The position numbers and the translations under genes are program-made. A DNA stretch of 37,300 bases from Archaeoglobaceae archaeon (GTDB lineage Archaea > Halobacteriota > Archaeoglobi > Archaeoglobales > Archaeoglobaceae), in assembly GCA_015523335.1 (NCBI GenBank), contig WAKM01000005.1, positions 1 through 37,300 of the forward strand. Reading direction: 5' to 3'. Shown here in pieces: positions 16,537-22,138 of this stretch (positions are counted from its first letter, which is position 1; each line of letters opens with the position of its first letter). A model generated the notes under the pieces. The model had not been told where the DNA came from, ran no database searches, and worked only from the letters and a program-made list of their open reading frames with translations.

Positions 16537-18519
16537 ATGCTCTCAGTAATCTTATGGCTCGGTGTGCTTGGGCTTTTAAGTTTTCTAACCCTACCGTTAG
16601 CCTCCAAGCTTAGGTTGATTTACGCTTCGAAGATCTTCGGTTTGGTTGTTCTCAGCTACATCGTTTGGATCTTTGCAAACTTCTTGAACTTCAAGACCGC
16701 AAGTCTCGTTGGCTTTTTAACCTACACTGCTATCTGCGTATATCCGCTCGCGAGATGTAAGGACGAAATAAAGGACATGCTGAAGGATTCCGCAAGATTT
16801 GAGATTATATTTGCAGTTTCTTTTTTGATCTATCTGCTCTACACCGCATTCAACCCGGACATATTTGGCGGAGAAAAGATGATGGATGTATCCGTTTTGA
16901 GCGGAATTCTTAGAAGTAGGGGAATGCCACCGATAGACGTCAATTTGGCTGGATTTAGATTCAACTGCTACTACTACATGGGCTACCTCATAGTCGCAAC
17001 GTTAACGAGCCTAACGCAAACATCAATCGGCGTAGCATATAACTTAGGAGTTGCAACGTTTTTTGCTTCTGTTTTGGCGTTATCTGTTGAATTCGCCATC
17101 AGAAACAGAGTCAAATTTTTGCCGATACTACTCCTAGCTGGAAACTTAGCATCCTTTGTAATACTGGTAGGTTGCGGACTGCAGATGCTCGGGTTAATTC
17201 ACGTAGAAGGGCTTAAGCCCGAAAGAGCGTTCGATTTTTGGACTGTAACGAGGGTAATTCCGGGCACGATAAATGAGTTTCCATTTGCAACGCTAACGTT
17301 TAGAGATCTTCATCCCCACCTCATGGACATCCCGTTTCAGGTTCTATTCATAATACTGCTGTTCGAATACGTCAAGCTTAGAGATCGGAGAATTCCGATT
17401 TTTCTATCGTTTCTGCTCGGATTCATGTTCACTGTAAACTCTTGGGAGTTCCCAACCTACCTGACTTTACTGACACTTACGATTTTAATTTTTGGAAGCT
17501 TTAGGGATCTTTTTGCGTTACCGCTTGCCGTATTTCCCTACATACCATACATCGTCAAACTTCATCCGTATGCGGTTAAGGGAATAGGTGTGGTCACCGA
17601 AAGAACCATGCTTCCCAACTTCGTCGTAGCTCAGCCTTTAATTCTGATTCCGTTGTGCTGGATCGCTTGGAAGAACAAAAAAAAGTTCTTAGCAATTTCC
17701 TTAACCCTGATACCGATAGCAGTTATTTCGAACTTCCAACTACTACCCCTCCTCATCCCTCTTGCGGTGTTGTCTGGAGTGAGTCTTCTAAAAAGAGATT
17801 TCAAGAGTATTTTGATCTTCATATCCGCGTTGATATTCTTACTCGTCGAGTTGTTCTACGTCAACGACCCCTATCCAGAAAAGTGGGAGAGATTGAACAC
17901 AGTTTTCAAGACCTACATTCAGGCGTGGATTATGCTGTCGTTCGCATCGGCGTTCATAGTTTCCAAAATCAACAGAAGAGCGCTTAAGATAGTTGCCCTA
18001 TTCGTAGCGATTCTCTGGATTTATCCCGTGGGTTACATTGCAACGTTGCACGGATTTAAGGGTAGTATCGATGGCATGACGTATACCAAGAAGTTCGGTG
18101 AATACGATGCTCTGAGATATCTCCAGAAATGTCCGAACGGCGTTGTGTTGGAGTTTCCGGGGAAGAGTCCCTTTGAATCCTACACATACACCGGCAGAGT
18201 TTCTGCTTTTACGGGGTTGCAGAGCGTCATTGCGAGAGGCGGACACGAACTCTTTTGGAGGTATTACAACGAATCAACGATTCCGATGCTGTATGAAAGG
18301 TGGAGGGACGCGAACGAAATGTATTCGGCAAGTGATATCGGCGAGATCATTCCACTACTTAAAAAATACAATGTAAAATATATTTATATTGGATATTTAG
18401 AGAAGAAACACTACAGTGAGGAAGCTCTAAGAAAATTCGAAGTGTTCAAAAAGATATACGACGACAGCAAGGTTGAGATATACGAGGTAACGTTTTTAAC
18501 TGCAAAGGCACACAATTGA
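16537..18519 (+). CDS. DUF2298 (YYY-domain) polytopic membrane protein, GT-C-like
   Basis: 660 residues with about twelve or more membrane helices. The family signature is clear: PDIFGGEKMMD (107-117), GMPPIDVNLAGF (129-140) and CYYYMGY (144-150), the triple-Tyr element that names the family. DUF2298 proteins resemble GT-C membrane glycosyltransferases that use polyprenyl-linked sugars on the outer face. A surface-glycosylation role is therefore reasonable, but substrate is unknown. The C-terminal about 150 residues form a soluble domain (YVNDPYPEKWERLNTVFK through KYIYIGYLEKKHY). A C/D box sRNA begins 2 nt after its stop. Confidence 0.8.
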   Translation: MLSVILWLGVLGLLSFLTLPLASKLRLIYASKIFGLVVLSYIVWIFANFLNFKTASLVGFLTYTAICVYPLARCKDEIKDMLKDSARFEIIFAVSFLIYLLYTAFNPDIFGGEKMMDVSVLSGILRSRGMPPIDVNLAGFRFNCYYYMGYLIVATLTSLTQTSIGVAYNLGVATFFASVLALSVEFAIRNRVKFLPILLLAGNLASFVILVGCGLQMLGLIHVEGLKPERAFDFWTVTRVIPGTINEFPFATLTFRDLHPHLMDIPFQVLFIILLFEYVKLRDRRIPIFLSFLLGFMFTVNSWEFPTYLTLLTLTILIFGSFRDLFALPLAVFPYIPYIVKLHPYAVKGIGVVTERTMLPNFVVAQPLILIPLCWIAWKNKKKFLAISLTLIPIAVISNFQLLPLLIPLAVLSGVSLLKRDFKSILIFISALIFLLVELFYVNDPYPEKWERLNTVFKTYIQAWIMLSFASAFIVSKINRRALKIVALFVAILWIYPVGYIATLHGFKGSIDGMTYTKKFGEYDALRYLQKCPNGVVLEFPGKSPFESYTYTGRVSAFTGLQSVIARGGHELFWRYYNESTIPMLYERWRDANEMYSASDIGEIIPLLKKYNVKYIYIGYLEKKHYSEEALRKFEVFKKIYDDSKVEIYEVTFLTAKAHN

Positions 18520-18521
18520 AA

Positions 18522-18576
18522 GCCGATGATGACTGATGGGCGAACTGAATTGTGATGAAAGGGAGAGTTCTGAGGC
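18522..18576 (+). ncRNA. C/D box sRNA (2'-O-methylation guide)
   Basis: All four boxes are present with canonical spacing. Box C ATGATGA is at 18526-18532 and box D' CTGA at 18545-18548. A 3-nt spacer leads to box C' GTGATGA (18552-18558), then box D CTGA (18570-18573). The guide regions are 12 nt (CTGATGGGCGAA, 18533-18544) and 11 nt (AAGGGAGAGTT, 18559-18569). A short terminal stem is formed by GCC (18522-18524) and GGC (18574-18576). Archaeal C/D RNAs bind L7Ae, Nop5 and fibrillarin to methylate rRNA or tRNA. It lies directly behind the DUF2298 stop and is probably cut from that mRNA. Confidence 0.85.
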
Positions 18577-18655: not shown

Positions 18656-18982
18656 TTAACCGAATAGTGCTCCAAGTCCTTCCAGAGCTTCTTCTTCCGC
18701 CTTTTCTTCTTCCTCTTCCTTCTTCTCCTCTTCTTCCTTCTTCTCTTCTCCTGCCTCTGCGGCTGCTTCTGCTGCAACTGGTGCTGCTGGAGCCGCTACG
18801 GCTGGGATGGCGGCCTTCGAAATAGCCTCGTCTATGTCTATACCCTCCAAAGCGGCTACGAGAGCCTTAACTCTCGCCTCGTCCACCTCTATTCCAGCCG
18901 CGCTAAGCACGGCTTTTATGTTCTCCTCGTTTATCTCCTTCCCAGCAGCATGCAACAACAAAGCCGCATACACATACTCCAT
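18656..18982 (-). CDS. rpl12: Ribosomal stalk protein P1 (archaeal L12)
   Basis: 108 residues from the ATG at 18982. It is a dimeric stalk protein that binds uL10 and recruits translation GTPases. The N-terminal dimerisation domain begins [18 protein letters not shown]; an Ala/Pro hinge (about 65-80) and a Glu/Lys tract follow, and the tail ends in GLGALFG, the factor-binding motif shared with uL10. In-frame codons upstream at 18991 overlap the GGAGG Shine-Dalgarno (18991-18995), so the ATG 8 nt further on is the start. The acidic tract is nucleotide-identical to part of the uL10 gene. Confidence 0.95.
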
Positions 18983-18997
18983 TCCGACCACCTCCTA

Positions 18998-20017
18998 TTA
19001 ACCGAACAACGCTCCTAAACCCTCTAAAGCTGACTCTTCAGCTTCCTCCTCTTCTTCCGCCTTTTCTTCTTCCTCTTCCTTCTTCTCCTCTTCTTCCTTC
19101 TTCTCTACCTTCTCAACCTTAGCCTGTAAGCCTGAAATCCTGTTCCTGAGATCATCATCAAGAGCATCATCCGGCAGGTGAGATGCTAAAGCGACCATCT
19201 CAGCATATGCTTTCGCAAGTAAGTCTGGCATAACATCCTTCTCGAAGATTCCAGCGTTTATCGCTAAGTTTCTCGCATCGATCACGGCTTTCATTATGAG
19301 TATCTCCGCAGTTTCTTCCGTTACGTATGCCGCGTTCACGGCTAAGTTCAAAGCCTTCTGGAAAGCTTCTGCGAGTTGTCCCTTTACAGCTTCCTCGTCG
19401 ATCGCAAGCACGTCCGGTGTTAGAATGACGCCGCTGTCGTAGATGGCCCTAACATCCAATCCCAACTTTATTGGTTTGATGTCCAACTTCTCCAAAGCCC
19501 TCGCGACCTCCGGCTTGACCACATCTCCAGCCTTAACGACGGTGACGGTCTCCTTTATTACGATCTTGCCCCTCTCTATTGCAGCTGGCAGTCCCGCTGC
19601 CTGTAGTTCACCTATTATCGGACCGGGCGGGAATGGGGTTGGCCCCTTCTCGACTACGACATCCACTGGAGAAACCTGCCCTGGTTTCAGTGGCGAAGGA
19701 ACTTTCGTCTCTTCGATCATCTTGAACAGCTTGAACGGGTTCATGTCCGTAGCGACGATGGCTGTCTGATCGTAGATAAACTCTTTGAGCCTTTCGAAAT
19801 CTCCGCCCAAAGCGTCAATTGCCTTCTCTAAGAGGGTATTCTTGACTACCTTGATCAGAGCCTTTCCTCTGAAGTCTCTCCTGATCTTCTGCATCTGTCC
19901 AGATGGAACCCCCCTAAAACCTACGATCGCTATTACCGGATAACTTGAAAAGATCCTTCTAATCTCCTCAACAGCCTGCACCTTCCACTTCGGCGGAGAT
20001 CCTCTTACAGCCGCCAT
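18998..20017 (-). CDS. rpl10: Ribosomal protein uL10 (P0)
   Basis: 339 residues, normal for archaeal uL10. The RNA-binding N-terminal domain carries AIVGFRGVPSGQMQKIRR. An archaeal insertion with KGPTPFPPGPIIGELQAAGLP follows, then helical P1-binding segments (about 210-295), a charged Lys/Glu stretch and the C-terminal GLGALFG. It anchors several P1 dimers at the ribosomal stalk. The ATG is 1 nt after the uL1 stop (TGAAATG), so it is translated from the same mRNA. Confidence 0.95.
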   Translation of the reverse strand: MAAVRGSPPKWKVQAVEEIRRIFSSYPVIAIVGFRGVPSGQMQKIRRDFRGKALIKVVKNTLLEKAIDALGGDFERLKEFIYDQTAIVATDMNPFKLFKMIEETKVPSPLKPGQVSPVDVVVEKGPTPFPPGPIIGELQAAGLPAAIERGKIVIKETVTVVKAGDVVKPEVARALEKLDIKPIKLGLDVRAIYDSGVILTPDVLAIDEEAVKGQLAEAFQKALNLAVNAAYVTEETAEILIMKAVIDARNLAINAGIFEKDVMPDLLAKAYAEMVALASHLPDDALDDDLRNRISGLQAKVEKVEKKEEEEKKEEEEEKAEEEEEAEESALEGLGALFG

Positions 20018-20018
20018 T

Positions 20019-20666
20019 TCAAATCACCCTCACGGCAGGACCCATTGTAGTTTTAACGTATATCGACTTTACGTTCTGACTTGGGTTTTCATACTTATTC
20101 TCAACGACCTTAAGTATTTCCAACGCATTTTCCGCCAACCGCTCCGGATCCATGTCCCTCTTACCGATCGGAGCATGGAACGTCGGCTTATCTCTCGTTC
20201 TGATCTTCACCGACTTCTTCAGCCTTTCAATGAACGGTTTGGGATCGGCTAAAGGCGGAATCGGCTGTGGCATCTTTCCTCTCGGCCCAAGGATTGGTCC
20301 AAGCTTCCTACCTATTTCCGGCATCAACGTCGCCTCGGCTATGAAGAAATCGATTCGCTTTGCAAGTTTCTTCGCTTGCCTCTTGTTCTTTGCGAGCTCG
20401 TCTATGTCTTCGGGTGAGAGAACCACATCCGCCCCGGCATCCTTAGCCTTCAAAGCGGTTTCTCCCCTTGCGAAAACTCCAACCTTTCTCGGTTTACCCA
20501 AGCCGTGCGGAAGCATGACTATAGCGTCGATTCTGTTTTCCGGTCTTCTCATGTCCACGTTTTTCAAGTTTACCGCCATCTCCACCGTTTCGACGAACCT
20601 CCTCGGTTTCGCCTTCTGAATCGCTTCGCTTATTGCCTCGACGAGCCTCTCTTTTTCAACTAACAT
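20019..20666 (-). CDS. rpl1: Ribosomal protein uL1
   Basis: 215 residues. It binds helix 76-78 of 23S rRNA in the mobile stalk near the E site. The family segments PHGLGKPRKVGVFARG, GRKLGPILGPRGKMPQPIPP and FHAPIGKRDMDPERLAENA are all present. In methanogens uL1 is also a translational repressor of its own operon. A matching hairpin precedes this start codon. The gene for uL11, often upstream in euryarchaea, is missing; PAN lies there instead. Confidence 0.95.
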   Translation of the reverse strand: MLVEKERLVEAISEAIQKAKPRRFVETVEMAVNLKNVDMRRPENRIDAIVMLPHGLGKPRKVGVFARGETALKAKDAGADVVLSPEDIDELAKNKRQAKKLAKRIDFFIAEATLMPEIGRKLGPILGPRGKMPQPIPPLADPKPFIERLKKSVKIRTRDKPTFHAPIGKRDMDPERLAENALEILKVVENKYENPSQNVKSIYVKTTMGPAVRVI

Positions 20667-20677
20667 TTAATACCACC

Positions 20678-20708
20678 CCGTAGTCCCAACGGCGTCCGCC
20701 TCCTACGG
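20678..20708 (-). promoter_or_regulatory. uL1-binding-site-like hairpin in the leader of the uL1-uL10-P1 mRNA
   Basis: Read on the minus strand, an outer stem CCGTAG / CTACGG encloses an inner stem GGC-GGAC-GCC. The internal loop has GA on the 5' side and GTTGGGA on the 3' side. This is the architecture of the known archaeal uL1 mRNA site and of its 23S rRNA target: AG-GA-GGC ... GCC-purine-rich loop-CU. The GGGGTGG ribosome-binding sequence begins at the last bases of the outer stem and the ATG is 11 nt further on, so uL1 binding would block initiation. Confidence 0.7.
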
Positions 20709-20730
20709 ACTTTCCCATGCCATCACCAAG

Positions 20731-20740
20731 ATATTTTAAG
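20731..20740 (-). promoter_or_regulatory. TATA box of the uL1 operon
   Basis: CTTAAAATAT on the minus strand. Transcription would start about 26 nt later near 20709, that is, almost at the first base of the uL1-type hairpin. Confidence 0.5.
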
Positions 20741-20875
20741 TTATCGCTGATCGGCACTTACCGAAACAAATACGAAGGAGATACGGTTGGAGGACTTTTA
20801 GGAAGTATTTTTAACTTTTTGGAACGTAAATTAAGAAATAATCGAACCCGCGTTAGGTGGAGGATCCGAAGTGGG

Positions 20876-22138
20876 CTAAACGAACATTACTCCCTTTATG
20901 TCGCCGAATTTCGTTTCCTTTCGCATAACCTTTTCTATGGCTTTAAGGAAGTCGTCCATCTTCACGGTAGTTCTGTCCTCCCTTATCGCGAACATTCCTG
21001 CTTCGGTGCAAATTGCTTTGATGTCTGCTCCGCTGGCTCCCTCCGTGAGGTTCGCAAGTTCCGCGAAGTTAACGTCATCGGCAAGCTTCATCTTCCTCGT
21101 GTGGATCTTGAATATCTGAATTCGTCCTTCGTAGCTCGGCAGTGGAACCTCTATTATTCTGTCGAATCTGCCCGGTCTAAGGATGGCCGGATCCAATATG
21201 TCGATCCTGTTCGTTGCTCCGATGATCTTGATGTCCCCTCTCGGATCGAACCCGTCCATCTCGGCAAGCAGTTGCATCAAAGTCCTCTGAACCTCTCTAT
21301 CACCGCTCGTATCGCTTGCAGTTCTTCTCGCAGCGATCGCATCCAATTCGTCTATGAATATTATCGAAGGAGCCTTCTCCTTCGCAAGTTCGAATACCTC
21401 TCTGACGAGCCTCGCACCCTCGCCTATATACTTCTGAACGAACTCGCTACCTACGACCCTTATGAAGGTGGCGTTTGTGTGATGAGCAACGGCTTTAGCG
21501 AGCAGGGTTTTTCCGGTGCCCGGTGGTCCATACAGCAGAACGCCTTTGGGCGGCTCTATTCCGACCTCTTCGAACAACTGAGGCTTAAGCAGTGGGAGTT
21601 CTATCGCCTCTCTGATCTCCTCGATCTGCTTGTCCAAGCCACCTATGTCCGCGTAAGTTACCTTCGGTCTCTCTTCTACTTCGAACGCATATACCGTAGG
21701 ATCCTTCGATGAAGGAAGAACGCTTACAACTGCCAATGTCTGCTGGTTAAGAGCGACTCTAACTCCGGGCTTAAGCTCTTTAGGATCGATATAGTGAGAA
21801 GCGTAAACTACAAACTTGGGACCGGTTGAGCTTTTAACTACAACCCTACCGTTGTCGAGGACATCCGAAATCACTCCAACTATGAGAGGAGGCGATCTCA
21901 ACCTTTCGATTTCGCTCCTAAGTCTCCTAACTTCCCTCTCAAACCTTATCCTTTCGGTTTCGGCGAACCTCTTCTCATCTTCAAGCTTACGACAAAGTTC
22001 TTTAAGCTTGTAATATTCCTCCTCAATTCTCTTAAGCCTGAGGTATTCCTCTTCCAATCTTTTGAGCCTGTCGAGTAAATACGAATAATCCAAGGATTCC
22101 ACCGCAACGTCTTCCTTCGGAATGTCTTCTCCGCCCAC
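20876..22138 (-). CDS. pan: Proteasome-activating nucleotidase PAN
   Basis: 420 residues. A hexameric AAA+ unfoldase that feeds proteins into the 20S proteasome. The N-terminal coiled coil (about 15-80) is followed by an OB domain (about 82-150). The AAA+ domain has Walker A GPPGTGKT, Walker [32 protein letters not shown] with arginine fingers, and the pore loop [18 protein letters not shown]. The C-terminus ends GVMFV, where the canonical gate-opening HbYX motif would have Tyr. Start is GTG at 22138, supported by GGAGG 7 nt upstream (22146-22150). Confidence 0.95.

Follow-up and report, generated by a model that had tools for sequence, protein, structure and literature searches.

What does the short, imperfect hairpin immediately upstream of the uL1 gene in this Archaeoglobaceae genome do, and does it belong to the mRNA of the gene that follows it or to the promoter that precedes it? 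The locus lies in the window, the 37,300-nucleotide stretch of contig WAKM01000005.1 analysed here, and comprises the genes for uL1, uL10 and the P1 (L12) stalk protein, with a gene for a proteasome-type AAA ATPase, which ends at 20876, located upstream of uL1. An initial annotation, made from the letters and their open reading frames, described the hairpin as a mimic of the uL1-binding site of 23S rRNA at the head of the uL1-uL10-P1 mRNA. Direct reading of the minus strand reproduces that description base by base and at the same position (Table 1). The uL1 encoded in the window belongs to a family with solved archaeal members and is a close relative of L1 proteins of known structure; the sequence of one of these solved relatives also occurs in entry 1u63, which we take to be an L1-mRNA complex. 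A further RNA, the sR1 C/D box RNA (RF01152, 54.9 bits), is found on the plus strand at 18522-18575 of the window, just past the end of a plus-strand ORF (16537-18519), where it faces the 3' end of the operon.

Table 1. Coordinates of the operon, the hairpin and the neighbouring signals in the window.
Feature	Position	Strand	Description
Promoter-like block	20732..20746	minus	CGATAACTTAAAATA; TATA-like TTAAAATA within, starting 31 nt before CCGTAG
TATA-like cTTAAAATAt	20740-20731	minus	direct reading
uL1-site hairpin	20678..20708	minus	CCGTAG-GA-GGC[GGAC]GCC-GTTGGGA-CTACGG; direct reading, alignment of relatives, covariance model
Outer helix of hairpin	CCGTAG 20708-20703 / CTACGG 20683-20678	minus	
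5' loop GA of hairpin	20702-20701	minus	
Inner helix of hairpin	GGC 20700-20698 / GCC 20693-20691	minus	
GGAC loop closing inner helix	20697-20694	minus	
3' loop GTTGGGA of hairpin	20690-20684	minus	
Shine-Dalgarno-like GGGGTGG	20673..20679	minus	its two leading G also form the 3' end of the outer helix
GGTGG directly 3' of hairpin	20677-20673	minus	
uL1 start codon ATG	20666	minus	
uL1 gene	20019-20666	minus	PF00687; proposed repressor and first target
uL10 gene	18998-20017	minus	PF00466; starts 1 nt after uL1 end
P1 (L12) stalk protein gene	18656-18991	minus	PF00428; third operon gene, 6 nt after uL10

The hairpin is conserved almost throughout the class Archaeoglobi. We located uL1 in 57 of the 59 class genomes and fetched 56 uL1 loci, 55 of them with a readable leader; in 54 of these leaders CCGTAGGAG...CTACGG is present just 5' of the uL1 start codon, with a gap of 17-21 nt between the arms and a total length of 29-33 nt. 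The class alignment (A1) contains 54 of the 56 loci and omits L026, which is truncated by a contig edge, and L030, which has no hairpin; the L026 leader was recovered on another contig (L118), with the hairpin present. A covariance model (R1) built from the 54 class leaders yields a single match in the whole of the organism's own genome (E 9.8e-16); because R1 includes the window's own sequence, the relatives constitute its real test. R1 matches 55 of the 59 class genomes, once in each except G012. The second match in G012 (L117, 26.2 bits) falls, by eye, inside an eS19-like reading frame, and we discarded it as a chance occurrence. The class genomes lacking an R1 match are G024, in which the match to uL1 is limited to residues 85-215, G045 and G054, in which there is no uL1 match, and G048, the sole class genome with a readable uL1 leader and no hairpin (L030/L119). 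In G048 the uL1 gene closely follows a DUF166 gene (L119), and the leader may have been lost through rearrangement.

The outer helix is invariant across the 52 distinct class rows, an invariance conditional on the selection of rows by the exact CCGTAGGAG...CTACGG pattern (which only L026 and L030 failed), and no covariation is visible there. The inner helix changes from GGC/GCC to GAC/GTC and to GAA/TTC, that is, by compensatory changes in two of its three pairs: pair 2 goes from G-C to A-U in four class rows, and pair 3 from C-G to A-U in two, with one row unpaired. RNAalifold independently recovers the same nine pairs, and its consensus has the GGC/GCC register of the initial annotation. Folding of the window's sequence by itself is not better than chance (MFE -14.5 kcal/mol, z -1.29, with 23 of 200 shuffles equally good), and the MFE fold has a shifted inner register, GGCGG/CCGUU, unlike the comparative one; on both grounds the single-sequence fold was dropped as evidence. 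We judge the hairpin to be beyond chance because of the comparison among relatives, not because of any one fold. An Rfam covariance search of the region, with E up to 10, returned no family matches, bacterial L1 leaders included.

Beyond the class, R1 matches bring the total to 156 of the 392 genomes in our sample of the phylum Halobacteriota, 55 of these being the class genomes. We fetched 50 non-class neighbourhoods, 15 because R1 had matched there (L134, L156-L169) and 35 according to the position of uL1, with R1 matches at many of these too; L134 held no uL1, leaving 49 non-class uL1 starts to be read. The element is found at 47 of these; of the other two, L145 has it with a longer insert, and L155 is without it. 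Among the 47, the outer helix is CCGTAG/CTACGG in 34, CCATAG/CTATGG in seven, TCGTAG/CTACGG in five and TCGTAG/CTACGA in one, the 5' loop is GA (26), TA (11), AA (7) or CA (3), and the base preceding the 3' arm is always A. By direct reading of this wider set, two of the six outer-helix pairs show compensatory changes, as does one of six on the phylum-level alignment (A3). A3 contains 66 of 71 sources and has no row for L119, L139, L145, L152 or L155, although L139 and L152 do carry the element, as does L145 with its insert. The alignment is model-fitted and so biased toward pairing, a bias that applies both to its 99.8% of paired cells over the 66 sequences and to the 26 cells changed on both sides, compared with 7.6 in shuffles. 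Covariation of the stems in related genomes, on which the initial annotation had staked its reading, is thus present, for the inner helix in the class and for the outer helix in the wider phylum.

A broader second covariance model (R2) matches 270 of the 392 phylum genomes, and all 38 non-class R2 matches for which both positions were reported sit at a uL1 start. Twenty further uL1 starts, mostly chosen as R2 misses, were read by eye; the element is present at six (L225, L226, L227, L230, L231, L237) and absent from 14. At many of the latter, again by eye, uL1 is close behind the end of a uL11-like gene and there is hardly any leader. Given these hairpin-less starts, drawn mostly from R2 misses, and G048, the element is dispensable.

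The organism's own 23S rRNA is missing from the assembly, and we used same-genus 23S for comparison. In the class 23S sequences that we read, the uL1 site (helices 76-78, the L1 stalk) consists of GGCGG or GGTGG, GA, GGC...GCC, a loop ending in A, and CCGCC or CCACC. The hairpin has the same GA / GGC:GCC / G...A core, but its 3' loop is 7 nt long, compared with 12 nt in same-genus 23S, and its outer helix differs from the G+C-rich helix of class 23S (GGCGG/CCGCC in the same genus), so that the outer helix of the mRNA is not identical to that of the organism's kin. Identity in this helix is not a defining feature of such sites; in the Methanococci, too, the site has its own helix. Among 14 non-class 23S sequences of the phylum, the helix adjacent to the core is GGTAG/CTACC in nine and GATGG/CCATC in five, and the window's mRNA helix shares the four loop-side pairs GUAG/CUAC with those nine but not with class 23S. 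Because the outer helices differ, R1 did not match the uL1 site in the 23S loci searched. In the 23S of genus g12 (L062, L063, L067) the middle pair of the inner helix is flipped, giving GCC/GGC, while the g12 mRNA keeps GGC/GCC, indicating that the mRNA copy does not track its 23S template base by base. The mimicry resides in the layout and the core; the outer helix has the look of an old copy that was maintained separately. One 23S sequence (L080), from an Archaeoglobi bin (G054), appears by eye to have a bacterial L1 stalk and is probably a contaminating contig.

The same layout recurs in other archaea at a different place. A scan with a Methanothermococcus uL1 query gave 55 named loci, and in 35 of them the layout is found inside the uL1 gene, at about +27 to +68, as GTGAAG-GA-GGC[15 nt]GCC-GAGAAA-CTTCAC or near it; any such in-gene site is found in 4.5% of shuffled sequences. 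The 35 loci are labelled Methanococci, Methanobacteria, Thermococci, Methanomicrobia or plain archaeal bins. R2, run on 40 of the 55 loci, found no leader-type element. On this evidence the Halobacteriota have the leader form and those other archaea the in-gene form. The rRNA-mimic layout that the initial annotation had likened to that of Methanococcus is therefore upheld, as the window's site matches both helices 76-78 of 23S and the in-gene site. Its suggestion that the site had "moved" from the gene into the leader finds no support, because the leader position is common to the phylum and hence old, with no direction of change apparent.

The uL1 of Methanococcus vannielii (MvaL1) represses its own operon through an mRNA site. 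That site, in M. vannielii and M. jannaschii, has the order found in the window (helix, GA, GGC:GCC, a G plus purine-rich loop ending in A, helix) and likewise sits on a uL1-uL10-L12 mRNA; its form is the one seen in the Methanococci loci of our scan. It differs in lying within the coding sequence (about +27 to +68) and in having the outer helix GUGAAG/CUUCAC, whereas the window's site lies in the leader, against the Shine-Dalgarno (SD) sequence, with CCGUAG/CUACGG. Leader sites have also been described: Shimmin and Dennis reportedly placed an L1 site in the leader of halophilic archaea in 1989, and the abstract of a 1999 paper by Kraft et al. in Genetics is said to describe, for A. fulgidus as for halophiles, a typical L1-binding site located within the untranslated leader. 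In our set the A. fulgidus leader (L019, G001) has the element in the position and form seen in the window, similar leaders are present in other families of the phylum, and the window's hairpin differs from the A. fulgidus/halophile site only in species, inner loop and small changes. Leader-type uL1 control itself is already known, and the window's hairpin is very probably a further instance of it. The bacterial rplK-rplA L1 leader also involves uL1 autorepression by rRNA mimicry and an irregular stem-loop with an internal bulge, according to a general uL1 review (PMC10931766), but it precedes uL11 or uL1 in another operon. Our literature search, which left subscription papers mostly outside its reach, found no paper on the Archaeoglobi uL1 leader beyond that review of uL1 in general, and no earlier description of the phylum-wide extent of the site, its frozen outer helix or the loss in G048.

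What is observed, then, is a conserved structured element, in a fixed place relative to the SD sequence and start codon, with a likeness to the uL1 site of rRNA. We propose that this hairpin is, very probably, the autogenous operator of the uL1-uL10-P1 operon, through which uL1 would repress translation. The placement of the element bears on how it could act. Our script located an ATG in 47 of the 54 class leaders, and in every one of these the outer helix lies 8-13 nt from it; the remaining seven, which include GTG and TTG starts, yielded no ATG. An SD match is present in 53 class leaders, and in 45 of these the best match begins 1-2 nt inside the helix or directly at its end; it begins within the helix in 45 of 46 non-class leaders. 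The anti-SD GGATCACCTCCT is found at the 3' end of the 16S rRNA in a genome of the same family (L065). With SD and outer helix overlapping or adjoining in this way, the initial annotation was right to put the site in a short leader immediately next to the ribosome-binding sequence.

An overlap of this kind would also suit an element of translation or mRNA stability that is independent of uL1, one that masks or presents the SD sequence, protects the 5' end (to which the hairpin is expected to be close in about half of the class leaders) or perhaps serves as a thermosensor. We consider this very improbable, as it does not account for conservation of the internal loop (NA / GNN...NNC-G...A), for the element being restricted to uL1 leaders or for the presence of the same layout within the uL1 gene of other archaea. 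The groups bearing the element presumably include both mesophiles and hyperthermophiles, which we also count against an independent element such as a thermosensor.

The spacing to the promoter is looser than that to the start codon. TTAAAATA precedes uL1 in 46 of the 54 class leaders and is missing from the other eight. It lies 30-32 nt before CCGTAG in 28 leaders and 34-85 nt before it in 18; in the organism's own genus the distance is 31-32 nt. The initial annotation had transcription beginning at the first base of the hairpin, which fits the genus but not the class in general. The element is in register with the ribosome-binding site and not with the promoter, and this favours translational control over a DNA operator. 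It is accordingly very unlikely that CCGTAG...CTACGG serves as an inverted-repeat DNA operator, read by a transcription factor at the transcription start. In favour of such an operator, its arms are nearly invariant and, in the genus, it lies near the expected transcription start, 31 nt after the TATA box. Against it, class leaders differ widely in the distance to the TATA box (30 to 85 nt) but keep 8-13 nt to the start codon, outside the class the arms are 13 to 44 nt apart, and some 90 nt apart in L225, and both the compensatory changes and the rRNA-like internal loop would be meaningless for a DNA site.

Several other features of these leaders were recorded. The promoter-like block CGATAACTTAAAATA is conserved in front of uL1 in the class, yet has one exact occurrence in the organism's own genome, plus one match with a single mismatch elsewhere; its matches total 27, close to the 23 of a reversed-pattern control. 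In genus g12 (L016, L022, L025, L027, L028, L038) a block, TTAAAATACTCtaaaCACTACGgGCTGAAAGTT, lies between the TATA box and the hairpin and is as conserved as the TATA box despite differing surroundings. A second "switch" arm that would pair with the hairpin was considered but found no support: CTA(C/T)GG is found upstream at eight places in 101 leaders, compared with 3.4 in shuffles (maximum 10), and the sixmer is broken in L022 of g12.

It is exceedingly unlikely that the regulator is another product of the operon, the uL10-P1 complex; a bacterial L10(L12)4 complex does bind the leader of its own operon (PMC4538822), but the RNA described here resembles the 23S uL1 site, the site compared, and stands before uL1, not uL10.

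Under autogenous control by uL1, the operon could be regulated as follows. uL1 in excess of newly made 23S rRNA would bind the copy of helices 76-78 on its own mRNA and keep the outer helix closed. The 30S subunit would then be blocked from starting on uL1, because the SD sequence begins inside the 3' arm or right after it. Synthesis of uL10 and P1 would drop along with that of uL1, presumably by translational coupling, and new rRNA, if preferred over the mRNA, would draw uL1 off and allow the mRNA to be translated again. This sequence of events follows from the nature of uL1 as a bifunctional repressor that recognizes the same motif on rRNA and mRNA, with autoregulation and mimicry conserved in archaea, as stated in PMC10931766.

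A broader reading, which we put forward tentatively and hold to be possible rather than likely, is that the leader site is one ancient, phylum-wide RNA family, separate from the in-gene type of the Methanococci, Methanobacteria and Thermococci. The outer helix of the Archaeoglobi members would have been frozen at CCGUAG/CUACGG, with loop-side pairs as in the 23S of most other sampled families, while the Archaeoglobi's own 23S drifted to GGCGG/CCGCC; the A-U pairs beside the loop may have been selected because, at high temperature, they leave the mRNA site weaker than its rRNA counterpart.

The comparison provides a covariance model, ready for use, of a regulatory RNA missing from Rfam, and it indicates that archaeal uL1 control of the leader type extends across the phylum and is tied to the ribosome-binding site, not the promoter. 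With leader and in-gene architectures that have fixed but different helices, the divergence of a feedback RNA from its rRNA template becomes testable, and G048 offers a natural knock-out in which to ask what uL1 feedback is for. If the broader reading is true, a weaker mRNA site at high temperature would set the order of the feedback.
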